Below are positions 31,943-61,254 of a stretch of 64,000 nucleotides of DNA, piece after piece (position 1 is the first letter of the stretch; every line of letters starts with the position of its first letter). The translations under genes and the position numbers were made by a program. The notes under the pieces were generated by a model. It ran no database searches, was not told the origin of the DNA, and saw only the letters and a program-made list of their open reading frames with translations. The stretch covers positions 259,806 through 323,805 of the forward strand of contig NZ_KZ614148.1 in NCBI RefSeq assembly GCF_002886185.1, given 5' to 3'. The DNA comes from Salipaludibacillus neizhouensis (GTDB lineage: Bacteria; Bacillota; Bacilli; Bacillales; Salisediminibacteriaceae).

Positions 31943-32083
31943 GTTGACAGCTACCTTCTCGCCGCAAGTATCAAGGGAAACTCATCTCCTTTCGAGTAGC
32001 ACCTACACGCACTACGTAGGTGCTACTCGGGGGCGGCGGAAGCTGACGCTGTAATTAATAAAAGACGCTTTACGTTTTTCTTA
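31943..32083 (+). repeat. Family A repeat, long form with inner palindrome (A1)
   Basis: Left end TTGACAGCTACC, core CAAGTATCAAGGGAAAC, inner near-palindrome at 31993-32029 (arms CGAGTAGCACCTAC / GTAGGTGCTACTCG), then GCTGACGCTGTA and a right-end hairpin AAAAGACGC...CGTTTTTCTTA. It ends 3 nt before the stop codon of the minus-strand gene at 32086. Confidence 0.85.
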
Positions 32084-32085
32084 GA

Positions 32086-32199
32086 TTACCTTTTTGCAAG
32101 TTCAATAACAGCCTTGACTGCCTCAATCGATTGAAATGAAAAAACACTTAGAGCTGAAAATGATAAAAAACCAACAACTATTATGCGAAATAACATCAT
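32086..32199 (-). CDS. Putative small membrane peptide, 37 residues
   Basis: Starts MMLFRIIVVGFLSFSALSVF behind GGGGAG, with a single hydrophobic helix and a C-terminal EAVKAVIELAKR. It follows the membrane protein at 32213-32560 with 13 nt spacing. No family recognised. A longer open frame upstream (to 32328) overlaps that gene and lacks an SD. Confidence 0.45.
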   Translation of the reverse strand: MMLFRIIVVGFLSFSALSVFSFQSIEAVKAVIELAKR

Positions 32200-32212
32200 G
32201 GATATCTCCCCT

Positions 32213-32560
32213 TTACGTGTATTTGATTTCTGCAAATAACGAAAGGGAAACGCGAATGTAATCAACTCCAAAATAAACAGGGGTGAATAAAACTCTGTTT
32301 CTTCTAAAATACCAGTCTGGATACTCATGAATCGCTAAAACTAATTTAGTAGAGAGCAAGGCCAAGGTTAAAGCTAATAAAACGGTAATAAATAATTTAT
32401 CCAATTCAACAAGAAAGGAAGTATCGTGTATTATTTCATAAGATTGAATAGAATCGAAAATATTCGTGGGCTGAATTTCATCTAAACTGTATGTGTTATG
32501 AAGGAGGATCGCTGCAAGTGTTAAATGTATCAATGACACTATTAATTTAGGACTAGCCAT
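32213..32560 (-). CDS. Hypothetical membrane protein, 115 residues
   Basis: Two predicted membrane helices (KLIVSLIHLTLAAILLHN at the start; FITVLLALTLALLSTKLVLA in the middle) with a 40-residue loop rich in polar residues. It ends with aromatic and basic residues. SD GGAGGGTTGC lies before ATG 32560. No family recognised. A strong inverted repeat sits 40-80 bp upstream. Confidence 0.55.
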   Translation of the reverse strand: MASPKLIVSLIHLTLAAILLHNTYSLDEIQPTNIFDSIQSYEIIHDTSFLVELDKLFITVLLALTLALLSTKLVLAIHEYPDWYFRRNRVLFTPVYFGVDYIRVSLSLFAEIKYT

Positions 32561-32599
32561 GTAGCAACCCTCCAGTGAGTATCCTTGATTATATACTCA

Positions 32600-32642
32600 T
32601 TAACACTATTTGCATATGGGCAAACACAAAAAATAGTGTTAA
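32600..32642. promoter_or_regulatory. Perfect 12-bp inverted repeat, candidate operator
   Basis: TTAACACTATTT at 32600-32611 and AAATAGTGTTAA at 32631-32642, separated by 19 nt. It lies 40 bp upstream of the minus-strand membrane protein start. A terminator is less likely, because no T-run follows in either direction. Confidence 0.45.
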
Positions 32643-32895
32643 GTTTTCTGACCTCATGAATGGTTGTTTTGAAGAATGACCTTTCGCTTTCTGTGGATTA
32701 TCCGCATGCCTTCTAGGAAACAGCCTTTATATATATGTTAGGATGAAAGAAAACAATATGTTTTAACTCTTTGAAATACGCTTAAAAATGTAAAGAATAT
32801 GGATAATGATCTGTTTAGTAACATGGAATAGAGGGAATAAATCTACTGAAATACAGCGAGATATATAAGTTTTTTATTCTTATAGGAGGTACATC

Positions 32896-33624
32896 ATGCA
32901 AGCACGTCAATCGATGCTATTAACACAGGAAGACATAGATGGAAACCAAGAACATCCTAATTGGTTTCATAATGAATATGAAACATTTAGGCAAACTGTT
33001 ATGAGAAAAGACTTCCCCTGTTACTTTGGGCAAACTGGGGAGAGGAAAGGGGAGCTTCGCTATTCCTACATTAGCCAGGACGACTGGTCAACACTTCCAG
33101 AAACGTTAAGTGACTTTTTAAATTTATTTAATAAACCTAAGCTGACTCGTCATGGATTATTTGTTTTTGTGGAACCTGAGAAGGAAGAAAAGAGCATTGA
33201 CTATTATCGGGAATATTTTTGGGAAATCCTCCAATACCTTCATAGAAAAGATGGCTCTGAATGGCCAAGTGATCAACCGAAGGACCCAGAGCATTACCTT
33301 TGGGATTTTCATTTTAAGCAGGAGCCCATTTTTGTTTTTGGAAATGCACCGGCTTATAAACAAAGAAAAACGAGGGATCTCGGTAACAGTCTTGTACTCG
33401 GTTTTCAGCCTAGGCGAATATTCAAAGGGTTGGAAGGAACGGAGAAAGGTGGGGTAATGTCCAGAGAAAAGGTAAGAGAACGTGTAGAAGTTTGGGACAA
33501 CCTACCCAAACATCCGGACATTAGCCATTACGGGGACCCATCGCATAACGAGTGGAAGCAATTTTTTATCGGTGATGATGCAGAACCGATAAAAGGTAAA
33601 TGCCCCTTTCATGTGGAGAAGTAG
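32896..33624 (+). CDS. YqcI/YcgG family protein
   Basis: A 242-residue protein of the YqcI/YcgG family. The conserved segments NWFHNEYETFRQTVMRKDFP, CYFGQTGERKGELRYSYI and the end CPFH are visible, with paired Cys near residue 43 and near the C terminus. These could bind heme or metal, but the family's activity is not known to me. It has its own SD (AGGAGGTAC). Confidence 0.82.
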   Translation: MQARQSMLLTQEDIDGNQEHPNWFHNEYETFRQTVMRKDFPCYFGQTGERKGELRYSYISQDDWSTLPETLSDFLNLFNKPKLTRHGLFVFVEPEKEEKSIDYYREYFWEILQYLHRKDGSEWPSDQPKDPEHYLWDFHFKQEPIFVFGNAPAYKQRKTRDLGNSLVLGFQPRRIFKGLEGTEKGGVMSREKVRERVEVWDNLPKHPDISHYGDPSHNEWKQFFIGDDAEPIKGKCPFHVEK

Positions 33625-33632
33625 TTTGAACG

Positions 33633-34424
33633 TTACCCTTGAAGTAAAGATTCACCACCATCAATATAGAGCTCTGTTCCAGTAATGTGGCTTGCTTTTT
33701 GAGAGGTTAGAAATTCAACTGCATCAGCAATTTGTGAAGGGTCAGCAGAACCTTTCATTAAGGGCTGATTGCCTCTTGGAAAGTGAGGCTGCATACTAAT
33801 ATTTTGGACTTCCGGAGATTTGCTCATGTTCTCGCTCATGTTCGTTGCTACCCCTCCAGGACAGACAGCGTTTACACGAATGCCATATTGACCTAACTCT
33901 AAAGCTGCCATTTTCATAAAAGTAGCTTGCGCTGCCTTTGCTGTGCTGTAGCAACTAAAGCCAGCTTGGGAATAAACTCTGTTTCCACTGATAGAACTAG
34001 TAATAACAATACTGCCTCCTTGTTTTTTCAATAAAGGGATGGCATATTTAACGGTGGCAAAAGTGCCTGTAAGGTCAATATCAATTGTTTTCTTCCAATC
34101 CTTGATGTCCATCGTTTCGATAGGAGCCATGACGCCTCCAATACCCGCATTGGCAAAAACGATATCAAGTCTTCCCCAGCTATTGTTTATTTCTTTCATT
34201 CCTTTCTCAATTTGAGATGGCTCTGAAATGTCACACTCTAAGGTCATTATCTGATCTTCACTGGCAGATAAGTGTATATTTACTTCGTTCAACCTCGTTT
34301 TATTTTTATCCATAATGCATACCTTTGCACCTAACTCCGAGAATCTTTTGGCTGAAGCCAATCCCATTCCTGAGGCACCTCCTGTTATGAGTACAACTTT
34401 GTCTGTAAATTCATTGAGAGTCAT
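33633..34424 (-). CDS. Short-chain dehydrogenase/reductase (SDR)
   Basis: A 263-residue classical SDR. The cofactor motif VVLITGGASGMGLASAKRFS (TGxxxGxG), NAGIGG, the catalytic Ser in SSISGN and Tyr-x-x-x-Lys in CYSTAKAAQATF, and the C-terminal GTELYIDGGESLL are all present. An acidic Asp after the second strand (VCIMDKNK) points to NAD(H). Substrate unknown. It is convergent with the YqcI gene (8-nt gap). Confidence 0.92.
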   Translation of the reverse strand: MTLNEFTDKVVLITGGASGMGLASAKRFSELGAKVCIMDKNKTRLNEVNIHLSASEDQIMTLECDISEPSQIEKGMKEINNSWGRLDIVFANAGIGGVMAPIETMDIKDWKKTIDIDLTGTFATVKYAIPLLKKQGGSIVITSSISGNRVYSQAGFSCYSTAKAAQATFMKMAALELGQYGIRVNAVCPGGVATNMSENMSKSPEVQNISMQPHFPRGNQPLMKGSADPSQIADAVEFLTSQKASHITGTELYIDGGESLLQG

Positions 34425-35154
34425 TAGTATAAGCTCCTTTTGATCGTTGTATTTTTTAGTGGTAAATTGAGAATTCTTTCGCCATAGCGGATTAGAGTAA
34501 TGCCCCGTTCTATAAAAACATCTGTTTTAATAGACGCTATAAATAAATTATTTTGCCCATTTAACCTTACCTCATAATGTAACAGTTGCCCAGACTCCTT
34601 CCATGAATAAAACTAAGTTAATAAGACTTAGAAGCAGTTCTACTGTTTTTTAAAACAGGTAAGCGTTTATATAATTCTTGATCTTAGAGATTAGTTGTAT
34701 GCTTTCGAACAGAGAGGCTCGAATCCGCTCTAGGCGGACGCCTTCCGCGGGCAATGCTTCAGTCTTCTCGGGAAAGTTCGTCCCTGCGGGGTCTTCCAGG
34801 TATAGTAAAGCTTATCTTCCATTATAATGTACTGGAATATCCAAAGGAAAAGATGATTAAGTAAATCGAGTATAATGCTGTATGATTGTTTTAGTCCGAT
34901 AAATGGAAATTAAAAGTACAATAAAGTGATTGGATTATCCCCTTGAGAAGAAAGAATAGTCAAAAACACGAAACCTGAGTGTAATCTTGCACGTAAAAGA
35001 GAAGGTTAATCAATTTGAGATACTAAAAAACGAAAGAATCAAGACAATAGCAGCTCTAAAGGAACACGAAGTAGTGTGTAGACATAGAGCAGAACCTCCG
35101 ATTTACAGAAATTTTACAGTTGCTATTAGAAGATAAAGAGGGAGTGGAGACAGT
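34425..35154. other. Intergenic stretch of 730 bp with a family B repeat
   Basis: Contains repeat B2 (34703-34830) and AT-rich sequence. A 47-codon frame at about 34990-35130 (containing NQFEILKNERIKTI and EPPIYRNFT) has no convincing start and is not called. The last 20 bp carry the SD of the NatA-like gene. Confidence 0.5.
34703..34830. repeat. Family B interspersed repeat (B2)
   Basis: Left end TTTCGAACAGAG-GCTCGAATCCG, followed by GC-rich CGGACGCCTTCCGCGGG and GTCCCTGCGGGGTCTTCC, and a right end CTTCCATTATAA shared with B3. Much richer in GC than its surroundings. Confidence 0.75.
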
Positions 35155-36057
35155 ATGACGTTGGTGATAGAAAATGTGAAAAAAAGATTTGGCGACCAGA
35201 TGGCAGTTGACGGTATTTCTGTTCAAGTTGAAAAAGGAGATATGTTTGGCATGCTTGGTTCGAATGGTGCAGGGAAAACAACAACATTTCGAATGATCCT
35301 TGGACTCATTGATCCTACAGAAGGCTTGGTCACATGGGAAGGGAAACCATTATCTTACAAACGAACAAATTTAATAGGGTATTTACCAGAGGAACGAGGG
35401 CTCTATCCGAAGCTTAGTGTGAAAGAACAAATTATTTATTTAATGAGATTAAAGGGAATGAAAAAGGCGGACATTATTAAGGATTTACGAGATTGGTTGG
35501 AACGGTTTCAAGTACCGGAGTATGAGAATAAAAAAATCGAGGAGCTTTCCAAGGGGAATCAACAAAAGATTCAATTTATTGCAGCAGTTTTACATAAGCC
35601 TGAATTACTCATATTAGATGAACCTTTTAGTGGATTAGATCCGGTAAACTCCGACATGCTTAAAAATGCAGTATTACGATTACAGGAGGAAGGAACAACC
35701 ATTGTTTTTTCCAGTCATCAAATGGCTAATGTAGAAAAATTATGTGAAGATTTAATCATGTTGAAAAAAGGAAAAGCCGTGCTTCAGGGTAATTTACGTA
35801 ATATTAAAAGATCTTATAATATGAAAAGAATTCATATAAGAGCGGATTACGAGTTGGACTTTTTAAAAAATCTTGATGGTATCCTTGATTTAGAAGTTAC
35901 GAAAGACGGTGGAATTATCAAGGTGGAAAATGAACAAGTAGCAGAAACTATCTTTAAAAGAGTTGCCGATAAAGGTTTTGTTCGAAAGTTTGAAATAGAA
36001 GAACCATCTTTGCATGACATTTTTATTGATAAGGCAGGTGAAAACGACAATGAATAA
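35155..36057 (+). CDS. ABC transporter ATP-binding protein (NatA-like)
   Basis: A 300-residue ATPase with Walker A (GSNGAGKTTTFRMI), signature (ELSKGNQQKIQFIAA), Walker B (LLILDEPFSGLDP) and switch His (SSHQM). It has the C-terminal extension typical of NatA/CcmA-like exporters. With the permease below it forms a two-gene exporter. B. subtilis NatAB extrudes Na+; a Na+ role is attractive for a halophile but not provable here. It overlaps the next gene by 8 nt. Confidence 0.88.
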   Translation: MTLVIENVKKRFGDQMAVDGISVQVEKGDMFGMLGSNGAGKTTTFRMILGLIDPTEGLVTWEGKPLSYKRTNLIGYLPEERGLYPKLSVKEQIIYLMRLKGMKKADIIKDLRDWLERFQVPEYENKKIEELSKGNQQKIQFIAAVLHKPELLILDEPFSGLDPVNSDMLKNAVLRLQEEGTTIVFSSHQMANVEKLCEDLIMLKKGKAVLQGNLRNIKRSYNMKRIHIRADYELDFLKNLDGILDLEVTKDGGIIKVENEQVAETIFKRVADKGFVRKFEIEEPSLHDIFIDKAGENDNE

Positions 36058-37303
36058 TTTTTGGACTACGGTCAGCCATACGGCAGGAAGAAGATTGAAA
36101 TCAAAGACATTTATATGGTCCACAGTGATCGTCATGATATTAATCATTGGCCTTATAAATTTAAATACAATTTTAAATGGATTCGCTGATTCAGATGATA
36201 GTTTAGAGACTGTAGCTGTCATTGATGAGACAGAGGGAGAGGCATCCTTTGGAGAATTGCTTGATTCCTATGAAGAGGGGGCTTTCGAGTATATACATTA
36301 TACAGACGGATCATTGGAAGACGCTGTAGAAGCTGCTGAGAATAAGGATTATGATTTTGTATTATCATTACAAGGTTCCACCACAACCCTTGAGGCTGAA
36401 TTTTTAAGTGAAGGAAATGATTTTACGACGGCTCAACAAGTCAATCAAGATGTGCAACGTGTGAAAGAGGCAGTTGCAACAAATGAGCTAGATTTGAATG
36501 AAGAAGAGCTGGCATTAATTTACTCGCCAATAACCTTTAACGAACAATCGTTGACGGAAGGTGGAGATGTGCGAACGGAAGCGGAGCATATGCAGGCATA
36601 CTGGATGGTGTATGCACTTGTGTTTGCTATCTATATCATTGTGTTAACTTTAGGTACAATGATCGCAACGGAAGTAGCTACGGAGAAATCATCCCGTGTT
36701 ATGGAACTTATCGTTTCCAGCGTTAACCCAGTTACGCAAATGCTGGGGAAAATTACTGGTATTGCGCTTGTTGGTGTGGTCAATCTGGGTGGGTTGGCAA
36801 TAGCTGCGTATATCGGGTTCATGATTAGTGGAGAAGAAAATTTCATACAAATGATTTTCAATGATGGTATTGAAGTTTCTTTGTTACTATACGCTTTATT
36901 ATTCATCTTTTTAGGATATTTTGTGTACGGTGGCGTTGCTGCTATGTTAGGTGCTCTCGTGAGCAGGGCGGAAGAAGCTAATCAGGCCATTCAGCCGCTT
37001 ATTATAGTAGCGATGATGGCTTTCTTCATCTCGTTAGTTGGTCTCAACACACCTGATTCAACATTTATTCAAGTGTTATCGTATGTACCATTTTTTACGC
37101 CTCAGCTTTTGTTCCTAAGAATTGGAATGGGAACTGTACCAGTTTGGGAAATAGCAGTAATCGTAAGTATACTCGCCATTAGTGCGGTTTTAATTAATGT
37201 ATTGGCAGCTCGTGTGTACAGAGGGGGCGTTTTAATGTACGGGAAATTCTCATTGAAGAATGGACTTAAACAAGCCTTAACGATTTCGAAAAAAGAAAGC
37301 TGA
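36050..37303 (+). CDS. ABC transporter permease (NatB-like)
   Basis: A 417-residue ABC-2 type permease. One N-terminal helix, a large extracellular domain of about 150 residues (very acidic), then five or six helices with the conserved ATEVATEKSSRVMELIVSSV and PVTQMLGKITGI. This layout equals NatB/YhaP. It starts within the end of the ATPase gene (SD GGCAGGTG). The acidic outer domain fits a salty environment. Confidence 0.88.
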   Translation: MNNFWTTVSHTAGRRLKSKTFIWSTVIVMILIIGLINLNTILNGFADSDDSLETVAVIDETEGEASFGELLDSYEEGAFEYIHYTDGSLEDAVEAAENKDYDFVLSLQGSTTTLEAEFLSEGNDFTTAQQVNQDVQRVKEAVATNELDLNEEELALIYSPITFNEQSLTEGGDVRTEAEHMQAYWMVYALVFAIYIIVLTLGTMIATEVATEKSSRVMELIVSSVNPVTQMLGKITGIALVGVVNLGGLAIAAYIGFMISGEENFIQMIFNDGIEVSLLLYALLFIFLGYFVYGGVAAMLGALVSRAEEANQAIQPLIIVAMMAFFISLVGLNTPDSTFIQVLSYVPFFTPQLLFLRIGMGTVPVWEIAVIVSILAISAVLINVLAARVYRGGVLMYGKFSLKNGLKQALTISKKES

Positions 37304-37318
37304 TAATGATAACTTTTC

Positions 37319-37350
37319 CTCGGGAAATCACTTCCCGGGGTATTTTTTTG
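37319..37350 (+). terminator. Terminator after the NatAB-like genes
   Basis: CCTCGGGAA / TTCCCGGGG arms followed by TATTTTTTT. Confidence 0.8.
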
Positions 37351-37434
37351 CTTGAAGTGGCTTCAGGGTGTAACCAAATAGAAAATCTTTCGTCTATTTA
37401 ATTAAGATAGAAATAAGTGGATGGAGGTTTAAGA

Positions 37435-38187
37435 ATGTCTAAAAAAAACTGGTTAATTGCTTCAGGGTCTATTGTAGGTACAATTAGTGTGATTTTATTA
37501 CTGCAAATCTTATTTAGTCCGTTTTATGATCAACCTGCAACAGCAAATGCAAGCGATGGAATTCAAGAAGGAACTTTGGTGGTAAGCGCGGTTGGTGAAG
37601 TCAGTGCGGAACCGGATATGGCATATATTCATCTTGGTGCTGAGGCAGTGGATACTTCAGCGGATGATGCACAAACCGAGGTGAATCAAAAAATGGAGGC
37701 TATACGACTAGTTCTAGAGGAACATGGAGTGGAAGATGCGCATATTAAAACGGCACAGTTAGATGTCTACCCGCATCAACAGTTTGATTCTCAAGCGAAT
37801 GGAAATGAAGATGCACAGTATCTTGCCCAACATATCCTTGAAATTGAATACAGAGATATTGATCGTTTAGGTGAATTTATTGATGACGCATCAGAAGCTG
37901 GGGCAAACAGAATTCAACAGACAAGGTTTGTATTACAGGATTCTGAGGCGGCAGAAAACAAAGCATTACAGCAAGCTATTGAGAAAACGGTTGGGAAGGC
38001 AGACGCTATGGCTGAGAGCGCCAATAGAGAACGTGGCGAAGTTTTACAAATAACTGACCAGCAAGCGCAAGTAGATTTCCCGATGCAAAGTAGCGCCGAG
38101 ATGGCGGAAGAAGATAGTCGCACTAACGTCGAGTCAGGAGAAGTGAAGATTACTCAACGGGTGGATGTAGTGTATCAATTAAAATAG
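37435..38187 (+). CDS. SIMPL domain (DUF541) exported protein
   Basis: A 250-residue protein with an N-terminal membrane anchor (WLIASGSIVGTISVILLLQI) and a SIMPL/DUF541 domain: LVVSAVGEVSAEPDMAYIHL, then AHIKTAQLDVYPHQQFD and the C-terminal GEVKITQRVDVVYQL. Bacterial relatives form oligomeric periplasmic or surface assemblies; some respond to oxidative stress. ATG 37435 has TGGAGG upstream. Confidence 0.85.
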   Translation: MSKKNWLIASGSIVGTISVILLLQILFSPFYDQPATANASDGIQEGTLVVSAVGEVSAEPDMAYIHLGAEAVDTSADDAQTEVNQKMEAIRLVLEEHGVEDAHIKTAQLDVYPHQQFDSQANGNEDAQYLAQHILEIEYRDIDRLGEFIDDASEAGANRIQQTRFVLQDSEAAENKALQQAIEKTVGKADAMAESANRERGEVLQITDQQAQVDFPMQSSAEMAEEDSRTNVESGEVKITQRVDVVYQLK

Positions 38188-38252: not shown

Positions 38253-38624
38253 GCTGGAAAAAATATGCTAAATCACTACACAATTATGTGAGAAAAACTT
38301 CCAGATGGATTGCCTATTTTTGTTCCTTGCATTATAAATAGAAGTAGTCACTTATTAAACTAGTAAAAACCCGTATTCATTTTCGTGAATAGATTATTTT
38401 TTTTGAAAAATAATATTATTTTGAAATAGACGTAAAAGCGTTTATTATCAGGCTTCGAGCTAGATTATGTCTAGTTTCAATCAAAAGTTAAGTCTAGTAT
38501 TTATTGAATAACTATGCTAAGATATTTTCAACAAAGAGAGTTAACAAAAGTAATTCATTTATTTAGAATAATGCGAATATTAGCATTATTAGTTTCTGTA
38601 CAAAATAAAAAAGGGGGAAATATT
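38253..38624. other. Upstream region of the amino acid importer (372 bp)
   Basis: AT-rich, with no gene called. A 37-codon in-frame extension of the following gene exists (from ATG 38514), but it would place the lipoprotein signal internally, so it is leader sequence. No riboswitch fold was recognised. Confidence 0.5.
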
Positions 38625-39515
38625 GTGAAAAAAGCTTTATTGTTTTTAGTAACGGCATTAGCGACAACAAGCATGGTAGCATGCGGAAATTCAAATGAAG
38701 ATGCTGGTGCTAACGAAAATACGAATGCAGCAGAAAACACGAATACAGAAGGGAATGCAAATGCAGCAGAAAACACGAATACAGAAGAGAATGCAAATGC
38801 AGAAGAGAATACAGATGCAAATGCAGGTGCAGAGGGAGAAACGTATACTGTAGCAGTTGATACAAACTACGTACCTTTTGGATTTTTAGATATTGAAACG
38901 AATGAAATGGTTGGATTTGATATCGATCTCATTCATGCAGTTGCGGACAAAGCTGGTTTTGAACTTGAAGTGGAAGTCGTTGAGTTTGACGGAATCCTAG
39001 CAGGGATGGAAACAGGTCGTTATGATATCGGCATTGCCGGAATGACAATTACAGAAGAAAGAGCAGAAAACTTTGACTTCTCTGATCCTTATTATGATGC
39101 AGGTTTAATCATAGCGGTAAGTGCTGATGAAGAAGAGATTCAGTCGGAAGATGACCTAGGTGGTGCAACTGTTGCAACCCGTGCATCTACTACAAGTGAA
39201 GATTATTTACTTGAAAATACAGATGCCGAGGTCAAAACGTTCCCTGATATCGTTAATGCGTATCAAGATTTAGTTGCTGGTCGTGTAGATGCAGTTGTTT
39301 ATGATGTTCCTAACGTTGCATATTACATTGAGACAGAAGCATTAGGTGAAATGAAAACTGTTGGTGATACATTAACAGGTGAACAATACGGAATTGCTTT
39401 CCCACAGGATTCTGAGTTAAGAGAACCTGTGAATGAAGCACTCGCAGAAATAATGGAAGATGGAACATATGATGATATTTATGAAGAATGGTTTGGCGAA
39501 CTCCCTCCAGAGTGA
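38625..39515 (+). CDS. Polar amino acid ABC transporter substrate-binding lipoprotein
   Basis: A 296-residue extracellular receptor. The signal peptide ends in a lipobox (TSMVACGNS), so the protein is lipid-anchored through Cys19-21. A low-complexity Asn/Thr/Glu/Ala tether with repeats of AENTNTE (about residues 24-66) follows. The type 3 periplasmic-binding fold starts at YTVAVDTNYVPFGFLDIETN and includes GMETGRYDIGIAGMTITEER. Ligands are probably Gln or another polar amino acid. GTG 38625 is preferred, with AAGGGGGAAA upstream. Confidence 0.9.
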   Translation: MKKALLFLVTALATTSMVACGNSNEDAGANENTNAAENTNTEGNANAAENTNTEENANAEENTDANAGAEGETYTVAVDTNYVPFGFLDIETNEMVGFDIDLIHAVADKAGFELEVEVVEFDGILAGMETGRYDIGIAGMTITEERAENFDFSDPYYDAGLIIAVSADEEEIQSEDDLGGATVATRASTTSEDYLLENTDAEVKTFPDIVNAYQDLVAGRVDAVVYDVPNVAYYIETEALGEMKTVGDTLTGEQYGIAFPQDSELREPVNEALAEIMEDGTYDDIYEEWFGELPPE

Positions 39516-42637: not shown

Positions 42638-42677
42638 TATTACCATAAATTGAGTACCGGAAAGAAATTGTTTAAGA

Positions 42678-42803
42678 GAATTTATAAAATTGGCAGCTAT
42701 CTTTACGCCACAAGTATCAAGGGAAACCCACCCTTGATACTTAAGTGATGGTGGCTAAAGATCACGCTGTATTTAATAAAAGACGGCTCTGCCGTTTTTC
42801 TTA
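42678..42803 (+). repeat. Family A repeat, form without inner palindrome (A2)
   Basis: Left end AATTTATAAAATTGGCAGC, TTTACGCCACAAGTATCAAG, a short middle (CCACCCTTGATACTTAAGTG), GTGGCTAAAGATCACGCTG and the right hairpin GACGGC-TCT-GCCGTTTTTCTTA. Its last three bases are the stop codon of the minus-strand P450 gene. Confidence 0.85.
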
Positions 42804-45316: not shown

Positions 45317-45776
45317 ATAATCACTACTCCCCTTTTAAAGCTATGGTTGTACGGTCTTTTCACAATTAAGTATAATGACGCATTTAAAGTTAAGTATTTC
45401 GTTTATAAAATGAAAAATAGCTACCTAGTATAACTGCGGCAGCCATCTGGATTTTAAATAAAAACCGTGGCGGCTAAGGTAAAAGAAATAATTCTAATAC
45501 TTTAGACCCTATGCTTTGCGTCCTATTCTTTCAAATAGTTTGCCTATATCAATACTAATATTATAATGTTAGTAGGACCTTTATCACCTGTCTTTTATAA
45601 TGTTACAATGATTTATGTCATATATCAACCTATTTCGACAAAACTTTATTTCATTGTACATATTTCGTATGGACTAGTAATTCTTATGCAATTGAAGAAG
45701 AGCACCAATAATAGAAGGGTTTTACCCTAGGCTTGAAGTACTAAACTAAAGTCTCGCAAGAGAAAAATTCGTAAAA
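45317..45776. other. Intergenic stretch of 460 bp, nothing recognised
   Basis: AT-rich region upstream of cheX and downstream of the BCCT gene. A patch at about 45434-45485 (GCGGCAGCC...CGTGGCGGCTAAGG) faintly resembles family A but is too diverged to call. Confidence 0.4.
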
Positions 45777-50734: not shown

Positions 50735-51137
50735 CAAAAAACACCTCCTCTTGTACGCTTAGAATAAGCTAAATCAGAGTCCGTAATACTATAGAGATAT
50801 TGTGATTGATGAGAATATTAGGAGCCCAAGCTATTTGTATCCATTATTTATTAATGAAGGAATTATAATTTAATCCAAATAAAGTAATTGGCAGCTATCT
50901 TTACGCCACAAGGAAGAGAAGTTCGCCCTTGATGCTTAAATGATGGTGGCTTTAAAGATCACGCTGTATTTAATAAAAGACGGCTCTGCCGTTTTTCTAA
51001 TTGAAAGTTGTACATATGCTCTAAGCAAATAAATGGACTTGTTAAGTTCTATGAGATAGTTTATTGTTACGGTCGAAAATGGATAATAACCGTATAAAAG
51101 TGACACTAAAGCATAAAGACAGCAGGAGGAGTTAGGG
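50735..51137. other. Intergenic stretch of 403 bp with repeat A3
   Basis: Contains family A copy A3 and the SD of the Old Yellow Enzyme gene (AGCAGGAGG). A 101-codon minus-strand frame at 50936-51241 overlaps both and is not called. Confidence 0.5.
50886..50999 (+). repeat. Family A repeat, form without inner palindrome (A3)
   Basis: AATTGGCAGCTATCTTTACG, a variant middle (CACAAGGAAGAGAAGTTCG), GATCACGCTGTATTTAATAA and the right hairpin GACGGC-TCT-GCCGTTTTTCT. Closest to A2. Confidence 0.85.
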
Positions 51138-52265
51138 ATGAAGAAACAATATGAACCAATGTTTGATACATTTACATTCAAACGAGGAGTTTCGGTGCCG
51201 AACCGTATTATGATGGCGCCAATGACGAACTTTGCTTCCAAGGAAAATGGGGAAGTATCGGAAGAGGAACTAGAGTATTATCGAGTTCGTTCCAATGGAC
51301 CCGGAACGGTGATTACTGCAGTTGCCTATGTTACTAGAGGTGGAAAAGGCTTCTCTCATGAAATAGGTGCGGATAAGGATCAACTAATTCCTGGGTTGGC
51401 ACGGCTTGCGTCAACGATTAAAGATCAGGGGGCAAAAGCAATTTTACAAATTTTTCACGGAGGAAGAATGTGTCCTCCAGAGGAGTTATTAGACGGACAA
51501 CCGGTTAGCGCAAGTGCAGTTGCTCCATTAAGAGAGGGTGCCGTTACTCCTCGAGAACTTGATCATACTGAAATAGAAGGAATTATTTCAGATTTCGGCG
51601 ATGCCACTAGACGTGCAATTGAGGCTGGTTTTGACGGTGTAGAAATACACGGTGCTAATACGTACTTAATCCAACAGTTTTTCTCTCCTCATTCAAACCG
51701 ACGTGAGGATGAGTGGGGTGGTTCTTTAGAAAAACGCATGCGATTTCCTTTCGCTGTGATTGATAGCGTAAAAAAAGCAGTTGATCAGCATGCTAAAAAT
51801 CCATTTGTTATCGGCTATCGTATTTCTCCCGAAGAAATGGAGAACCCGGGAATTAAAATGGAAGATACATTAGCATTCGTGGATCAGTTAGCAGAGGCAG
51901 ATCTAGACTATCTTCATATATCTGTTCAAGATTTCTGGAGTGGGTCAATGAGAGATAAGGAAGATAAAGAGTCACGGATCGTACTGATTCAAGATAAAGT
52001 AGGTGCTCGAGTTCCGGTCATTGGAGTGGGATCGCTTCATACGCCAGACGAAGTGATGAAAGCTTTTGACACAGGAATCCCTTTTGTAGCACTAGGTCGT
52101 GAGTTAATCATGGAACCTAATTGGGTGAAAAAAGTTCAGGAAGAGAAGGAAGATTCAATTCGTCAAACATTAACGAAAAATGATCAAAAAAAGCTAGTTG
52201 TTCCTGATTATTTATGGAATGCTATTATGAATAGTCCAGGTTGGTTTCCAGTAGAGGAAAAATAA
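51138..52265 (+). CDS. Old Yellow Enzyme family NADH:flavin oxidoreductase (YqiG-like)
   Basis: A 375-residue FMN-dependent TIM-barrel ene-reductase. Motifs are IMMAPMTNFASKENG, ILQIFHGGRM, GVEIHGANTYLIQQFFSPH with NRREDEWGGSLEKRMRF, and FVALGRELIMEPNWV near the C terminus. The length and C-terminal region match B. subtilis YqiG. Substrates are probably activated alkenes or nitro compounds. Own terminator downstream. Confidence 0.92.
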   Translation: MKKQYEPMFDTFTFKRGVSVPNRIMMAPMTNFASKENGEVSEEELEYYRVRSNGPGTVITAVAYVTRGGKGFSHEIGADKDQLIPGLARLASTIKDQGAKAILQIFHGGRMCPPEELLDGQPVSASAVAPLREGAVTPRELDHTEIEGIISDFGDATRRAIEAGFDGVEIHGANTYLIQQFFSPHSNRREDEWGGSLEKRMRFPFAVIDSVKKAVDQHAKNPFVIGYRISPEEMENPGIKMEDTLAFVDQLAEADLDYLHISVQDFWSGSMRDKEDKESRIVLIQDKVGARVPVIGVGSLHTPDEVMKAFDTGIPFVALGRELIMEPNWVKKVQEEKEDSIRQTLTKNDQKKLVVPDYLWNAIMNSPGWFPVEEK

Positions 52266-52315: not shown

Positions 52316-52329
52316 TTATAATAAAGATA

Positions 52330-52406
52330 AAGCTATTTTACGCCACAAGCATCAAGGAGACGGAAGCTTACGCTGTATTTAATAAAAGACGCTACGCGTT
52401 TTCTTA
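52330..52406 (+). repeat. Family A repeat, short form (A4)
   Basis: AGCTATTTTACGCCACAAGC, ATCAAGGAGACGGAAGC, ACGCTGTATTTAATAAAAGA and the right hairpin GACGCTACGCGTTTTCTTA. The middle is missing. It ends about 6-10 nt before the stop of the minus-strand channel gene. Confidence 0.8.
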
Positions 52407-52939: not shown

Positions 52940-52955
52940 TTTTTTATTAGTAGAT

Positions 52956-53108
52956 AATTTATAAAATTGACAGCTATCTTTACGCCACAAGTATCAAGGG
53001 AAACCCACCCTCCTTTCGGGTAGCACCTACACGAACTACGTAGGTGCTACCCGGGGTGGCTAAAGATAACGCTGTATTTAATAAAAGACGGCTATGCCGT
53101 TTTCCTTA
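52956..53108 (+). repeat. Family A repeat, long form with inner palindrome (A5)
   Basis: Left end AATTTATAAAATTGACAGC, TTTACGCCACAAGTATCAAG, inner palindrome with arms GGGTAGCACCTAC / GTAGGTGCTACCC, GTGGCTAAAGATAACGCTG and the right hairpin GACGGC-TAT-GCCGTTTTCCTTA. It lies just upstream of the minus-strand channel gene. Confidence 0.88.
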
Positions 53109-54232: not shown

Positions 54233-54253
54233 TAACTAAAAGATAAGCGTATA

Positions 54254-54290
54254 AGTTGACAAGCTATCTTTACGCCACGTGTTTTTCTTA
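54254..54290 (+). repeat. Family A repeat, minimal form (A6)
   Basis: Left end TTGACAAGCTATC, TTTACGCCACGTG, directly fused to the right end TTTTTCTTA. All of the middle is deleted. It ends 1 nt before the stop of the minus-strand hydrolase gene. Confidence 0.75.
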
Positions 54291-55448: not shown

Positions 55449-55477
55449 CCCTAGGATGAAAAGTCCTGGGGTTTTGT
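55449..55477 (+). terminator. Terminator after the 22-residue gene
   Basis: CCCTAGGA / TCCTGGGG arms followed by TTTTGT. Confidence 0.65.
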
Positions 55478-55543
55478 AGTACTAAACGGATAATGTTTAA
55501 ATAGTTGTTTTAAAAGGAAAATAACTTTTCAGGAGGGATTTTA

Positions 55544-55720
55544 ATGACTAAAAGATCTGATAATAAAGAAAACACCTTCAAAAAAGATAGAGAAGAACAA
55601 AAGAAACGTGATCAATCAACCATGCCTGTTGATGAACTTCCATTAGAAGAAATTAAACGGGAAGAAGAGGAAGAGCGTAATAAGAGAAGCTCAAAAAATA
55701 AATCATCCACGGATAAATAG
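55544..55720 (+). CDS. Small charged protein, 58 residues
   Basis: ATG 55544 behind CAGGAGGGA. The protein is almost all charged (MTKRSDNKENTFKKDREEQK at the start; a Glu/Lys-rich middle with MPVDELPLEEIKREEEEERN; a Lys/Ser tail). It looks disordered. The stop is part of a 16-bp terminator stem. No family recognised with certainty. Confidence 0.7.
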   Translation: MTKRSDNKENTFKKDREEQKKRDQSTMPVDELPLEEIKREEEEERNKRSSKNKSSTDK

Positions 55721-55755
55721 GTCAAAGCTGGCAATCAGCTTTGACCTATTTATAT
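55715..55755 (+). terminator. Terminator overlapping the 58-residue gene
   Basis: A perfect 16-bp stem (AAATAGGTCAAAGCTG / CAGCTTTGACCTATTT) with a 5-nt loop that includes the TAG stop codon. Confidence 0.85.
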
Positions 55756-55761
55756 GTTGAC

Positions 55762-55794
55762 TTGACAGCTACCTTTACGCTATGCGATTTTCTT
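55762..55794 (+). repeat. Family A repeat, minimal form (A7)
   Basis: TTGACAGCTACCTTTACGC joined to ATGCGATTTTCTT; left and right ends only. Confidence 0.65.
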
Positions 55795-55922
55795 GAAAAG
55801 TAAGAAAGCACAGGCCATATTAAGTTATATAACCTAGACACTAAGCATGAGTGATAACCAGTGTTAAAGGTGCTTGCGCTTTTCAAATAAAATTGTTTAC
55901 TATAGAGGTGGGGGTGAACGGA

Positions 55923-57152
55923 TTGTTTAAACAAATGCTCTTATCATTTTTATTTATAGTCATGATTATATCCTCTGCATGCACAGATAATGAGGCAGAA
56001 ACTCCTATGGAAAACAAAAATGTAAATGTGGAAGAACCTGAAGCAGAAAACAATGGAAACATAGCTCCAGAAGAAGAAATTAAAAGGTTGGTAGTCACCT
56101 CTTTGAATCCCGAGCTGGAAGTGGATGACTCAGAGTATACTGAAAAGTTTGACCAACTGGATGTCATCGTAAGTGACGTTAATTTATCGGAGGAAGAAAA
56201 GCTTGGCACATTTGATTTTGATGGGATTGTTTATAATGTTGCAAATATCTCTTTACATGAAATAGAAGTTACTGAGGAAGCACAAAATGAATATTCTACG
56301 AACGCTGCTGGGAATTTTCTGATCAGCTATGATGTGATTGCATACAATCAAAAGGAACAGCGTGAGAGAGTATTCTTGCCACATTTAGATGTGAAAATTA
56401 ATGGTCATACTTTTACGAATGAGGGAATTATTGGTCCGAGTATCCTTTACACCGAACTCAGACCAGAACAGGCGAAAGTGATTAGAAATCATATCATGGT
56501 TGCTTACCCGCTTGAGAATTCTGAAAGTATTGATGTAGGTCTTGGTTATGAATTTAGAGCGGAAAACATTGTAGGTCAGACGCCACGTGTGACAATCTAC
56601 GGAGATGCTCAAGAAAAAGTTGACTACAATACAGTAATTGAGACTAACCTAGCGACTAAATTTAAAGATGGGTATCACAATATGCTGGGATCTTTGGAAG
56701 AAGATTATGAGTTAAATTTTGGTGAAACAATTTTCCAGCATGCAGAGCCTCTTTTATTTGATGAAGACAATGGAATAGCGATTCGGGTAAATCGTGTAGA
56801 GGTGATGGAAGTAGATACATCTGAAAACGAGGAATTTGGCAGTAGTGATGGCAAAGTAGCACTGTTAGTGGACACTACATACCTAAATAAAACTGATTTC
56901 CCTTTTGAAAAGCAGACGGAGATGGTTGAATTTGAATTAGGGGAAGGCACGTACGAAAATAAGATAGTTCTGTTACCCTATGAAAATGAAAATATCATCG
57001 TTGATCCTGGGACCTTATTTTATAATCGTGAGCTTATTATATTTGATATGTATAAAGATAATTTACAAGACATCACTGTAAAGCTTAGCCCATATGTAAT
57101 GAGGCAACTTAGTGCAGATGATTCTGAGTACGTAATATATGAGAGAGAGTAA
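55923..57152 (+). CDS. Lipoprotein, probably DUF5068-like
   Basis: A 409-residue exported lipoprotein. The hydrophobic N terminus ends in IISSACTDN, a lipobox with Cys about residue 20. An acidic linker follows, then a beta-rich body with DFDGIVYNVANISLHEIEVT and ISYDVIAYNQKEQRERVFLP, repeated loosely in the second half (AIRVNRVEVMEVDTSENEEF; KVALLVDTTYLNKTDFPFEK), so it may hold two related domains. Surface location. TTG 55923 lies behind GAGGTGGGGG; GTG 55914 is an alternative. The family name is a guess. Confidence 0.6.
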   Translation: MFKQMLLSFLFIVMIISSACTDNEAETPMENKNVNVEEPEAENNGNIAPEEEIKRLVVTSLNPELEVDDSEYTEKFDQLDVIVSDVNLSEEEKLGTFDFDGIVYNVANISLHEIEVTEEAQNEYSTNAAGNFLISYDVIAYNQKEQRERVFLPHLDVKINGHTFTNEGIIGPSILYTELRPEQAKVIRNHIMVAYPLENSESIDVGLGYEFRAENIVGQTPRVTIYGDAQEKVDYNTVIETNLATKFKDGYHNMLGSLEEDYELNFGETIFQHAEPLLFDEDNGIAIRVNRVEVMEVDTSENEEFGSSDGKVALLVDTTYLNKTDFPFEKQTEMVEFELGEGTYENKIVLLPYENENIIVDPGTLFYNRELIIFDMYKDNLQDITVKLSPYVMRQLSADDSEYVIYERE

Positions 57153-57233
57153 TTTCAAGAACTTGCGTTAGATTGTCTAATTAATTAACTGTATTAAAAA
57201 GTTTGTCTTCTAAGTTTCTGTTTGAAGTAAAAT

Positions 57234-57385
57234 AAGAAAAACGGCACAGCCGCCTTTTATTAAATACAGCGTCAGCTTCCACCGCCCCGAGTAGCACCTA
57301 CGAAGTGCGTGTAGGTGCTACTCGAAAGGATGGTGGGCTTTCCTTGATACGTGCGGTGTGAAGGTAGCTGCCAATTTTATAAATT
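57234..57385 (-). repeat. Family A repeat, long form with inner palindrome, reversed (A8)
   Basis: Reading the minus strand: AATTTATAAAATTGGCAGC, CGCACGTATCAAGGAAAGC, inner palindrome (GAGTAGCACCTACACGC / GTAGGTGCTACTC), GGAAGCTGACGCTGTATTT and the hairpin GGCGGC-TGT-GCCGTTTTTCTTA. The only full reversed copy in the window; its hairpin end faces the upstream lipoprotein gene, 80 nt after its stop. Confidence 0.88.
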
Positions 57386-57421
57386 CTTTTCTCTCAATAA
57401 AATTCTAGAAAACACCCGTTA

Positions 57422-57468
57422 AAACAAGGCCTTTGCGTAGAGTTTACTCGTAAAGGCCTTGTTTAATT
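57422..57468 (+). terminator. Terminator before the catalase gene
   Basis: A perfect 13-bp stem AAACAAGGCCTTT / AAAGGCCTTGTTT with a 17-nt loop, then AATTTT. Confidence 0.85.
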
Positions 57469-57602
57469 TTAGAAATAAACGAGATCAGCGAATGGTATTA
57501 TACCCTTTCTAAAAAATGCCCTATATATTCCTGTTGAGGGTGGTTATTCCATCCCATATTGGGCATAAATAAATGGAACAAATTTTTAGAGGAGGGTCTC
57601 GA

Positions 57603-59243
57603 TTGGAAAATAATTCAGAAGAAATCAGTAATTCCCCTGTGGAGGGAATGGGAAGTTCCGCAGATCGCCGAACCGGGACAGGAGAATCCGATGACTCGCT
57701 TACAAATAGACAGGGACATCCTGTCACAGATAACCAAAATGTAAGAACTGTTGGTAACAGAGGACCAACTATTCTGGAGAACTATGATTTCCTTGAGAAG
57801 ATTTCACATTTTGATAGAGAACGCATACCAGAACGGGTCGTTCATGCTAGAGGAGCGGGAGCCCATGGCTACTTCGAAACGTATGGAAAAGCTGGAAATG
57901 AAGATGTATCAAAGTATACTCGGGCAAAAGTATTTGAGGGTGTTGGGAAACAAACACCCGTTTTTGTGCGCTTTTCAACAGTAATCGGAGCCAAGGAGTC
58001 ATCGGAAGTTGCCCGGGATCCAAGAGGTTTTTCTGTTAAATTTTACACAGAGGACGGCAATTGGGATTTAGTTGGGAACAATCTAAAGATATTTTTTATC
58101 CGCGATCCTTTAAAATTTCCGGATATGGTTCATGCCTTCAAACCAGATCCTGTCACGAATGTTCAAGATCCTGAAAGAATGTTTGACTTTTTTTCTCAGT
58201 CGCCTGAAACAACGCACATGGCCACGTTTCTTTTCTCACCCTGGGGTATTCCGGCTAATTACAGACAAATGCAAGGGTCTGGAGTTAATACGTATAAATG
58301 GGTGAATAAGGATGGAGAATCCGTGATTGTTAAGTATCACTGGGAGCCGATAAATCAAGGTATTAAAAACTTGACTCAAAAAGAAGCAGATGACATTCAA
58401 TCACAGTCAACAAACCATGCTACACAGGATTTATATGAAGCGATTGAAAAGAAAGATTATCCTGAGTGGGAGTTTAGTGTACAAATAATGAGTGATGAAA
58501 AACATCCTGAACTAGACTTTGACCCATTGGATCCTACGAAACTATGGCCCACTGATCAGTTCCCTTTTCTTCCTGTTGGAAAGATGGTATTAAATAAAAA
58601 TCCAGAAAACTTCTATGCTGAGGTTGAGCAAGTGGCATTCGGTACTGGGGTTTTAGTGGACGGTCTTGATTTTTCTGATGATAAACTTTTACAAGGTCGA
58701 ACTTTCTCCTACTCGGATACGCAAAGATACCGTGTTGGATCGAATTACTTACAGCTTCCTATCAATTCGCCTAAAAAAAGGGTGGCTACAAATCAAGAAG
58801 GTGGACAAATGCAATATCGAGTGGACAAAGATCCTGATCTAAACCCTCATATTAACTATGAACCTTCAAGCCTAGGCGGATTGACAGAAGCAAAACAAGA
58901 GGGGAAGGTACATGAGCCTTTCTATGAAGATAAGTTAGTTCGACAAAAGATAGACAGACCGAATGACTTCAAACAAGCTGGAGAAACGTATCGTAATTTC
59001 GAAGATTGGGAAAAAGACGAGTTGATCAACAATCTTGCCAGTGCTTTAATGGTATGTGAAGAGCATATTCAAAAAAAGATGATCGAACATTTTACGGAAG
59101 CAGATGCTGATTATGGGAAACTCGTTTCGGAGCGGTTGGCAGAGGTACTGAAAGCTGCAAATAGTCAGCATACTGGGTCAACCAATGCTGATCGAGCCGT
59201 GGATACGGCTAAAAGAGAAGGACATGACGCAGATCCATATTAA
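57603..59243 (+). CDS. Monofunctional heme catalase
   Basis: Breaks down H2O2. The 546-residue protein has the catalytic His in [17 protein letters not shown], Asn in [15 protein letters not shown] and the heme Tyr in [20 protein letters not shown]. It is longer than vegetative KatA (about 483) and close to B. subtilis KatX (about 547), the catalase of spores, which fits the spore coat genes nearby; this is inference. TTG 57603 has AGGAGGG 7 nt upstream; the ATG at 57573 is earlier but lacks SD. Confidence 0.94.
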
Positions 59244-59413
59244 TATTAACTGTTTGTTGATATCGCAGCGTATTCGTTAAAGAAAGGCTTCGTTGAAAGT
59301 GTCATCAATTCTTATCTCCTTTCATAGACTAATGTGGAGTAAAAAGCAGTGAAAAGGGAAGTCCTAGCAGGTCCTCCTGCATTCGTTATCTCTGCAAAAA
59401 AGGAGTGGGATAG

Positions 59414-60283
59414 ATGATTTCACCGGGTACTTTTGATATCTATTTACAAGACGTCAGTCAGTGGGTTGCCAGCATAGAAGCTGATGTACAAAATCGTTCA
59501 AATCCAGATGCCAAAGAAAGTATTTACAAGGAAATAGAAGTACTGAAACAGATTTTATCTGAGAAGTCTTTTCCTGACGAGGATCAGCAGTTAAATGTGA
59601 CGGAGCAAGTCGATCGATTAGGAGAAATGTACGCCAACCTTTTTTCAGGTAATGACTATGTTCCGATTGGGGAACATAGACTGCCACCATTGCCATATGA
59701 ATATGATGCGTTGGAGCCAGCTATTAATGAAGAGATAATGAAGCTTCATCATCAGGAACATCACCAATCCTATGTAGACGGTTTGAATAAAGCGGAGAAA
59801 AAAATGCAAACAGCAAGAGAGACTGATGACTTCGATTTGCTAAAACATTGGGAAAAAGAAGCGGCATTTAACGGGGCTGGGCACTATTTACACACGATGT
59901 TTTGGAGTAATATGAGTCCTGATGGGGGCGGAGAACCAACGGGAAAACTTAGATCTTATATTGATCGTGATTTTGGAAGCTTTGATGCCTTCAAAGCGCA
60001 TTTCTCCGAGGCAGCCAAACAGGTTCAAGGTGTTGGATGGGCTATTTTAATATGGTCGCCACGTTCAAGGAGATTAGAAATTTTACAAGCTGAATTTCAT
60101 CATTTGTTAAGTCAATGGGATGCAATCCCTTTGCTCGGTCTAGATGTCTGGGAGCATGCTTATTATCTACAGTATAAGAATGGTCGAGGAGAATATGTTG
60201 ATAATTTCTGGACTATTGTTAATTGGCCGAATGTAAATGAAAGATTCGAGCAGGCAAGGAAACTTAAGTGGGAGCCTTATTAA
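59414..60283 (+). CDS. sodF: Fe/Mn superoxide dismutase with N-terminal extension (SodF-like)
   Basis: A 289-residue SOD. About 85 extra N-terminal residues precede the usual start (LPPLPYEYDALEPAINEEIM). Metal ligands are the His in LHHQEHHQSYVDGL, His in GAGHYLHTMFW, and Asp/His in LGLDVWEHAYYLQYKN. The length matches B. subtilis SodF (about 281) rather than SodA (about 202). The extension is helical and of unknown role. It follows the catalase gene by 170 nt; SD AAAGGAG. Confidence 0.9.
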   Translation: MISPGTFDIYLQDVSQWVASIEADVQNRSNPDAKESIYKEIEVLKQILSEKSFPDEDQQLNVTEQVDRLGEMYANLFSGNDYVPIGEHRLPPLPYEYDALEPAINEEIMKLHHQEHHQSYVDGLNKAEKKMQTARETDDFDLLKHWEKEAAFNGAGHYLHTMFWSNMSPDGGGEPTGKLRSYIDRDFGSFDAFKAHFSEAAKQVQGVGWAILIWSPRSRRLEILQAEFHHLLSQWDAIPLLGLDVWEHAYYLQYKNGRGEYVDNFWTIVNWPNVNERFEQARKLKWEPY

Positions 60284-60344
60284 GGAGTCTTATTGAAAGA
60301 TTTAGATATGTATTAACACAAGATAGATTTACACATTTAAAAAG

Positions 60345-60388
60345 CTGTTTCGTTAGGTTTTGTAAACCTTATGAAACAGTTTTTTTAT
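60345..60388 (+). terminator. Terminator after the superoxide dismutase gene
   Basis: CTGTTTCGTTAGGTTT pairs with AAACCTTATGAAACAG (one mismatch), loop TGT, followed by a T-run. Confidence 0.9.
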
Positions 60389-60501
60389 TTGTAATGCAGA
60401 GAATCAAAGTCCGGGTGATGAATAGAAGTTAATAGATATGTTTTGATTAAAAAGGACGTGGGTATAAAAAATACAAGGAAATAGAAGAAAGGATGATAAT
60501 T

Positions 60502-61011
60502 TTGAGTAAGGTTGCATGTGTAATGACGAGTATGTTTGAAGATGCGGAGTATACGTCGCCTTTCAAAGCTCTTAGTGATAAAGGACATGAGGTCATTGTT
60601 ATCGGCCAAGAGGCAGGTAAAGAAGTAGAAGGGAAAAATGGCGAAGCGAAAGTAAAGGTAGATTTGAGTATTAAAGATGCTAAACCAACTGATTATGATG
60701 CATTATTTATACCAGGTGGATTTTCACCTGATATTCTTCGTGCCGATGATCGATTTGTTGAGTTTGTGAAACACTACATTTTGCATGACAAACCAATTTT
60801 TGCAATATGTCATGGACCTCAGCTTTTAATTACGGCAGATGTTTTAAAAGGAAGAAAAATGACTGGATTTAAATCAATCTTAGTCGACTTGCAACATGCA
60901 GGAGCCAATGTTTTTGATGAAGAAGTTGTCGTATGTGGTAATTTAGTGACAAGCAGGAGTCCTGATGATTTAGATGCGTTTAACCGAGAATCACTTAAAC
61001 AGTTGAAATAA
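60502..61011 (+). CDS. PfpI/DJ-1 family protein
   Basis: A 169-residue class I glutamine amidotransferase-like protein. It has the early Glu (FEDAEYTSP), the nucleophile elbow AICHGPQLL with Cys about residue 103 followed by His, and DALFIPGGFSPDILR. Members act as stress-induced proteases, glyoxalases or deglycases, and the exact activity is debated. TTG 60502 is preferred, as AAAGGATG serves as SD; ATG 60493 overlaps it. Confidence 0.88.
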   Translation: MSKVACVMTSMFEDAEYTSPFKALSDKGHEVIVIGQEAGKEVEGKNGEAKVKVDLSIKDAKPTDYDALFIPGGFSPDILRADDRFVEFVKHYILHDKPIFAICHGPQLLITADVLKGRKMTGFKSILVDLQHAGANVFDEEVVVCGNLVTSRSPDDLDAFNRESLKQLK

Positions 61012-61017
61012 ATTTCT

Positions 61018-61047
61018 AAAAGCGTCCCATAATGGGGCGTTTTTTTA
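61018..61047 (+). terminator. Terminator after the PfpI gene
   Basis: AAAAGCGTCCC / GGGGCGTTTTT with loop ATAAT, followed by T-run. Confidence 0.8.
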
Positions 61048-61093
61048 AAAGTTAATTTATAAAATTCTTAGTTTTACAGAAATTATTGTACTT

Positions 61094-61226
61094 CTTTGAA
61101 CAGAGGTACTCGAATCCGTGAGACTCCTATGGAAGAATGATCCAAGCGAGACCCCACAGAACATCCACGGAAAGCGAGCGGTAATTCTTCCAAATAACCT
61201 TCCGTACTAATAAAGCAACAAAATAG
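61094..61226. repeat. Family B interspersed repeat (B5)
   Basis: TTTGAACAGAGG, ACTCGAATCCGTGAGACTCC, AGCGAGACCCCACAG, CCACGGAAAGCGAGCGGT, CTTCCAAATAACCTTCCGT and terminal AAAATAG. The most complete copy of the family in the window. Confidence 0.8.
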
Positions 61227-61228
61227 AG

Positions 61229-61254
61229 ATAAAAGACGCTACGCGTTTTTCTTA
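61229..61254 (+). repeat. Family A repeat, right-end fragment (A9)
   Basis: AGATAAAAGACGCTACGCG followed by TTTTTCTTA, identical in layout to the right end of A4. Confidence 0.7.

Follow-up and report, generated by a model that had tools for sequence, protein, structure and literature searches.

A dispersed repeat, here called family A, lies mostly behind genes in a 64,000-nucleotide (nt) stretch of the Salipaludibacillus neizhouensis genome (the window, meaning the whole stretch analysed) and is present in high copy in that genome. Family A is a mobile element, since it is absent at three sites in seven of seven congeners and since target duplication is slight or lacking in two copies that lie inside another repeat. 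We lean towards the view that family A is a transposable element that is not autonomous and is mobilised in trans in the form of single-stranded DNA, possibly through a Y1 transposase of the REP-associated tyrosine transposase (RAYT) type. A sequence-only reading of the window had taken the repeat for a small mobile or actively copied 3'-UTR element; that it is small, has been copied, is of a mobile type and sits at gene 3' ends is borne out.

The 21-nt core of family A has 253 matches with up to three mismatches in the 5.51-Mb genome (132 forward, 121 reverse), compared with 0 for the reversed core, which excludes a chance origin. Searching with a profile of 78 seed copies detected 178 copies or parts, 127 of them near full length, in 75 stretches of the genome that include the window and amount to 982 kb; because these stretches were mostly picked around exact-core or top BLAST copies, the context counts given below lean to well-kept copies. 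Using a covariance model (E 1e-5), the repeat was above threshold in six of 35 genomes of the taxonomic family, with at least 95 matches in S. neizhouensis, at least 94 in a genome of a second genus (G025) and one to five in each of four others. In the seven congeners none was found at the thresholds used, a single 33-nt match in G007 covering the apical hairpin part alone. By RNase PH, two Salipaludibacillus species (82% identity) are among the closest named relatives of the genome. The exact 21-mer has no match in the genome_contigs collection, and family A has none in the plasmid and phage collections or, at gathering thresholds, in Rfam, searched with the window copies and with the stretches holding further copies; two copies searched in Rfam at E up to 10 gave none, with one unrelated weak match beside them. 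A search of the open-access literature by sequence and topic, with subscription journals outside its scope, found no description of the family.

Mobility is most directly seen at three intervals, which we presume from the protein sequences to be sdhB-MarR, racE-gerM and gerM-rph. Each holds a copy in S. neizhouensis, and all seven congeners lack it at all three. At the first two, inspection by eye showed a terminator alone in the seven congeners and a terminator followed by family A in S. neizhouensis, while in the gerM-rph interval the copy follows the tail of an older one. Two copies nested in family B, a second dispersed repeat, at loci L049 and L085, gave the same element ends when compared with unfilled family-B copies; L049 fits a target duplication of 0 or 1 nt and L085 one of 0 to 4 nt. 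Whether the element's last base is itself a 1-nt target copy was asked of the left flanks, which gave no discrimination. The empty sites in seven of seven congeners at three loci contradict the notion that family A consists of vertically kept, non-mobile terminators or RNA regulators of 3' untranslated regions (UTRs). Its 3' location and the covarying structure described below would suit such a role, but the distribution is patchy (six of 35 genomes above threshold, high copy in two) and copies are nested, and we regard this explanation as highly improbable.

The positions of the copies relative to genes define a target preference. Among the 178 profile matches, 163 reach the 3' part of the element and, with three at stretch edges, 160 were placed relative to genes and stops predicted by a simple, purpose-made gene caller. 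A same-strand gene lies upstream of 127 of the 160, compared with 41% expected by arithmetic on copy-free intergenic lengths. Convergent genes flank 45 copies, tandem genes 96 and divergent genes 19, the corresponding copy-free intergenic DNA amounting to 15.2, 70.6 and 36.3 kb. Where an opposing gene lies downstream (59 copies), its stop falls between −4 and 13 nt from the end of the repeat in 38, and the last TTA of the element is its predicted stop codon in 19. The enrichment beside stop codons that the sequence-only reading had put forward as a check is thus found.

Flanking sequences were examined in 104 full copies carrying the CAGC anchor. Between −32 and −25 relative to CAGC, T makes up 48-74% of the bases; 71 copies have a T5 run upstream, and a run of four or more T lies at −38 to −18 in 79, as against 21.7% of 5000 control windows. 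The left 52-nt flank folds better than the right, the means being −11.3 and −5.9 kcal/mol (p=1e-8, n=104), with 46% of left and 11% of right flanks folding below −10 kcal/mol, indicating that about half of the copies already stand behind a strong hairpin and about half do not; nine lie directly behind a TTTTCTTA tail resembling the element's own. Since about half follow a strong hairpin, family A often adds what would be a second terminator. The terminator-like hairpin with an A-run before and a T-run after it, as first described, is indeed present, but the proposal that the element serves to provide terminators is less well supported. Terminators look like a landing site at least as much as a purpose and, with about half of the copies already behind a strong hairpin, terminator function is in our view secondary.

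Orientation was analysed after leading strands had been assigned from gene strand and GC skew. Between convergent genes, where gene direction cannot bias the count, 34 copies are oriented with replication and 11 against (p=8e-4; counting one copy per gap, 31:10, p=1.5e-3). The divergent gaps hold 14 with and five against (p=0.06). Between tandem genes on the leading strand, 78 copies run with the genes and five against, while between those on the lagging strand four run with the genes and nine against. Sixty-four of the 81 exact-core copies are co-oriented with replication, and in G025 51 of 54 copies (the 54 listed of 94 scored) fit two replication arcs. Orientation follows replication beyond gene direction, the top strand being preferentially the lagging-strand template. 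This bias, combined with little or no target duplication, points to movement as single-stranded DNA, as described for HUH/Y1 elements (PMC6006769, in excerpt), or to intron-like insertion.

The same evidence bears on the alternative that a DDE transposase moves family A as a conventional miniature inverted-repeat transposable element (MITE), with a short target duplication hidden by the T-rich target and tail. The size, A+T-rich ends, imperfect inverted ends pairing in the fold and high copy number of family A all resemble such an element. A replication-strand bias, however, is not predicted for DDE elements, the nested copies allow a duplication of at most 1 nt at L049 and 4 nt at L085, and no transposase-bearing relative was met, no survey of all insertion sequences having been made; we therefore judge this route to be distinctly unlikely.

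Insertion by an intron enzyme requires separate consideration. Class C group II introns use terminators as targets, leave no target duplication on insertion and can have a preference for the lagging strand. Two group II introns of S. neizhouensis, 99% identical over 1.85 kb, lie directly behind the T-runs of intrinsic terminators:

L128 (G000:C2, near 535 kb): group II intron, with an Rfam match
L130 (C1, near 438 kb): group II intron, 99% identical to that of L128

As these introns also sit behind terminators, the landing target alone does not decide the mechanism. Family A might be copied via RNA, its terminated transcript being reverse-transcribed and inserted in trans by a terminator-homing group II intron enzyme, and its covarying structure with a terminator-like hairpin at the end would be in keeping with this. 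Yet Rfam intron models match true introns of the genome but not family A, and the 5' end of the introns (GTGTGCCCGGCATG) is unlike the family A ends. We consider copying through RNA possible though unlikely.

Copies of family A measure about 135 or 165 nt (the seed stretches, which include a few flank bases, have modes of 140 and 168 and a range of 107-172). The element begins at the left with NNA-GATAAG and A+T-rich sequence; next come CAGCTAYCTTYACRCCRC, the apical part and the matching right arm, and it closes with GCTGTATTTAATAAAAG, one small hairpin and TTTTTCTTA. The left end had been placed too far inward by the sequence-only reading, NNA-GATAAG preceding AATTTATAAAATT. The right edge is sharp (84 copies), and the small right-end hairpin occurs in variants including GACGGCTATGCCG, GACGCTACGCG, GACGCTTTGCG and GACCGCTATGCGG, with compensatory changes present. 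When 138 full copies (including 14 G025 loci, three of those repeats) were sorted into pattern classes, the ACC arm occurred with GAAGC in 57, the ATC arm with AAGATC in 48 and the ATC arm with GAAGC in six, the remainder falling into small or unclassed groups.

Covariation was assessed on an alignment (A1) of 53 of the 65 short copies, which left out nine poor S. neizhouensis copies and three repeated G025 loci; a second alignment (A2) holds 59 of the 71 long copies, the best-scoring 60 minus one. In the 53 short copies, 96.9% of the cells of the named stem are paired, compared with 92.1% after shuffling, 80 carry two-sided changes (25.1 on average in shuffles), and the covariation score is 0.184 versus 0.097; none of 500 shuffles reaches any of these values. 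The stem was named by hand from the same sequences before its pairs were counted, so that the slid controls are biased in its favour, and the counts fit RNA and single-stranded DNA alike. The RNAalifold consensus on the short copies is poor (−2.06 kcal/mol) because of alignment gaps. In folds, the imperfect inverted ends pair, and the left end pairs with distant sequence.

The apical part links family A to a second system. In the short type it is a simple hairpin (GTATCAAGGG...CCCTTGATAC); all fetched G025 copies are of this type, which is therefore probably ancestral. In the long type, as judged by eye, the 3' half of this hairpin is replaced by GAGTAGCACCTAC...GTAGGTGCTACTC and the orphan 5' half is kept. 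In long copies GTAG sits paired within the apical stem, and short copies lack it. Each of the two stem types is found with either apical type, which means that exchange of modules has taken place. The 11-mer GTAGCACCTAC occurs 153 times in the sampled S. neizhouensis DNA, 124 times in family A, 28 times in tandem arrays on four stretches and once elsewhere, whereas its reversed and three scrambled forms do not occur there. Tandem arrays whose units of ~91 bp carry paired GTAG palindromes, one array adjoining a RAYT gene, are found at:

L151, 4755-5257
L069, L071, L076 and L085

An array of 91-bp units, whose 11-nt arm is carried by long family A copies, directly adjoins a 204-aa Y1 frame that scores 67 bits against the REP-associated tyrosine transposase model, under the cut-off of 80. 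This frame and a 267-aa gene are the two Y1 genes of the genome that resemble RAYTs. RAYT relatives 56-58% identical in G003 and G002 also adjoin arrays, with units of 91 and 103 bp and different sequence. A survey of REP sequences lists GTAG repeats in other phyla only, in the part available (PMC3733652). The 267-aa gene adjoins a partial family-B repeat, as does one broken Y1 locus; this may be chance, given how common family B is.

In the account that we favour, family A would itself move as single-stranded DNA: T-tracts behind hairpins would be exposed as single strands at the replication fork (or where transcription complexes pause), and an HUH/Y1 transposase supplied in trans would cut and join at these tracts. 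Y1 genes are present in both high-copy genomes, S. neizhouensis and G025, and this, together with the shared palindrome, favours a Y1 enzyme. The best candidates would be the genome's own RAYT-type Y1 genes, since one of them adjoins a tandem array whose palindrome forms the apical hairpin of long copies. Each insertion would place a further two-way terminator-like hairpin behind a gene and often a TAA stop for an opposing gene, and harmlessness behind genes may explain the persistence of copies.

Several results weigh against this account. No autonomous element with family A ends was found at seven S. neizhouensis loci from five Y1 places, nor at a set of nine Y1 loci (four in G025, one in S. 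neizhouensis, three in congeners and one in G008). Y1 genes are common in genomes without family A (of 40 genomes searched, 31 carry one), and five of the seven congeners have Y1 genes yet no family A at the thresholds used. No array was found beside the RAYT relative of G007 (52% identity), and the short type has also spread without the GTAG hairpin, which is thus not needed for movement. At the left end a clear local hairpin like that of IS200/IS605 elements is lacking, and 33 of the 104 full copies lack an upstream T5 run. The duplication estimate comes from two nested cases, judged against family-B copies elsewhere that are somewhat different. The G025 arcs were fitted to the data, although the GC skew of the loci agrees, and gene direction is uncontrolled there. 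Six stem pairs show two-sided change and 18 further pair types occur, values reached by 131 and 345 of 500 shuffles, respectively. The best identity between two full S. neizhouensis copies is 98.5%, which falls short of indicating present activity.

Family A shares features with two other repeats. Family B, up to ~500 nt long (...CTCGAATCCGCTCTAGGCGG...GGAAAGCGAGCGGTAATTCTTCC...), often begins behind T-runs; its right end, where seen, is TTTTTCTTA, and some copies have the left end of family A. Besides further loci in the genome, family B lies in the window at:

10022
14630
34657-34900
41629
61046-61254

A third repeat, found in G025 (L104, L106 and L108; AAGAGTTAAGAAATTATAAAAATCTACGTTTCGATGTCTAGCTCC...), has a family A-like left end and in most cases follows a T-run; one copy extends as far as GCGCTTTTCTTA. 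All three repeats tend to start behind T-runs, and copies with a seen end finish in TTTTCTTA. Tentatively, and with less conviction than for the movement of family A itself, we suggest a class of small bacterial elements that land safely in terminator T-tracts of the lagging-strand template, move as single-stranded DNA, share ends and trade inner modules, the RAYT's REP palindrome among them. If so, a RAYT/REP system would have been taken aboard a larger mobile element, as one of the traded modules is that palindrome.

Nine places had been claimed for family A in the window, none of them in its first 31.9 kb. Six are confirmed by the profile, which has no match before 31,935, and the other three, two remnants and a tail, are below its threshold and were delimited by eye. 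The final A of the element lies one base beyond the profile-match end.

31935-32083, + strand: long type (GTAG apical hairpin); profile match 31935-32082
42673-42803, + strand: short type; profile match 42673-42802
50882-51000, + strand: short type with degenerate left part and tail (TTTTTCTAA); profile match 50882-50999
52320-52406, + strand: copy with internal deletion; profile match 52357-52403, left limit by eye
52950-53108, + strand: long type, complete, behind a T-run; profile match 52942-53107, left limit by eye
54239-54290, + strand: internally deleted remnant, left part joined to TTTTTCTTA; by eye
~55760-55795, + strand: internally deleted remnant; by eye
57233-57398, − strand: long type, complete; profile match 57398-57234
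61229-61254, + strand: A-type tail only (ATAAAAGACGCTACGCGTTTTTCTTA); by eye

The first copy starts after the T-run of an apparent terminator of the upstream gene (~31896-31934), the copy at 52320 lies directly behind a hairpin plus TTTTCTTA 3' of an FMN-oxidoreductase gene (51138-52265), and the remnant at 55760 lies directly behind a strong hairpin (55706-55760). The tail at 61229 stands at the right-hand end of a family-B-like element beginning near 61046. Four copies had been said to end within 10 nt of minus-strand stops, and all four do. The last TTA of the copy at 42673 (42801-42803) is the TAA stop of an opposing P450 gene (PF00067), the predicted stop of a metallo-hydrolase-fold gene (54292) lies 1 nt past the remnant at 54239, that of an ion-channel gene (52412) lies 5 nt past the copy at 52320, and a 38-aa open reading frame, seen by eye and below the size used by the gene caller, stops at 32086, 2 nt past the first copy. 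The P450, whose original C-terminus might have been lost, has best congener matches that end at residue 418-426 of 435. The 38-aa frame (32086-32202, − strand) is, as judged by eye, a possible membrane-peptide gene with a plausible ribosome-binding site.

Three other features of the window were noted:

45466-45554, − strand: c-di-GMP-I riboswitch aptamer (Rfam RF01051, 47.7 bits)
38718-38825: 18-nt tandem repeat (AATGCAAATGCAGCAGAA...) inside a predicted gene (38514-39515)
16232-17051: low-complexity GAAGAAGAA repeats, probably encoding a Glu-rich protein segment

Small bacterial repeats are common and their movement is mostly unknown. Family A provides a target rule (behind T-tracts, often those of terminators), a strand rule (the lagging-strand template), natural before-and-after sites and occurrence in two genera. 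Here, too, neighbouring genes obtain stop codons from a repeat, and a REP-like hairpin is linked to a larger repeat in a Bacillus relative.

Family A resembles several known systems in part. Group IIC introns likewise insert directly behind intrinsic terminators, in this genome as well; family A differs in having no Rfam intron match and no reverse transcriptase. Elements of the IS200/IS605 family insert without target duplication. They share with family A the lagging-strand template bias and a terminal hairpin followed by a fixed 3' end (PMC6006769, in the excerpted text), whereas family A has no transposase gene inside, no clear local hairpin at its left end and a less fixed target tract. 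The bcr1-bcr3 repeats of the Bacillus cereus group, which we compared by description, are also found in Bacillus relatives and are MITE-like and often in UTRs, with bcr1 measuring ~150 bp (PMC3446304 and PMC2267715); the plasmid collection gave no family A match. REP and REPIN sequences are, like family A, high-copy intergenic hairpins downstream of genes with a single-stranded DNA biology (PMC3733652 and PMC6006769, in part). Also REP-like are the GTAG-starting palindrome of long copies, which forms arrays beside a RAYT gene as well, and the arrays adjoining RAYT relatives at two of three congener loci examined. REPs, however, are 20-40 bp long with an unpaired terminal GTAG, as opposed to the ~135 or 165 nt of family A and its GTAG, which is paired in the stem or absent. 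SPRITE of Streptococcus pneumoniae, an 18-bp duplex with a long U-rich tract, is similarly small, A+T-rich, terminator-like and enriched near the 3' ends of convergent genes, and it likewise lacks a clear target duplication and significant similarity to known insertion-sequence ends, according to the sections available (PMC3049150). Judged against that partial description, family A is set apart by its separate long covarying stem, insertion behind T-tracts and replication-strand bias. SPRITE is the nearest described analogue that we found, and REP/REPIN and IS200/IS605 offer the nearest mechanisms.

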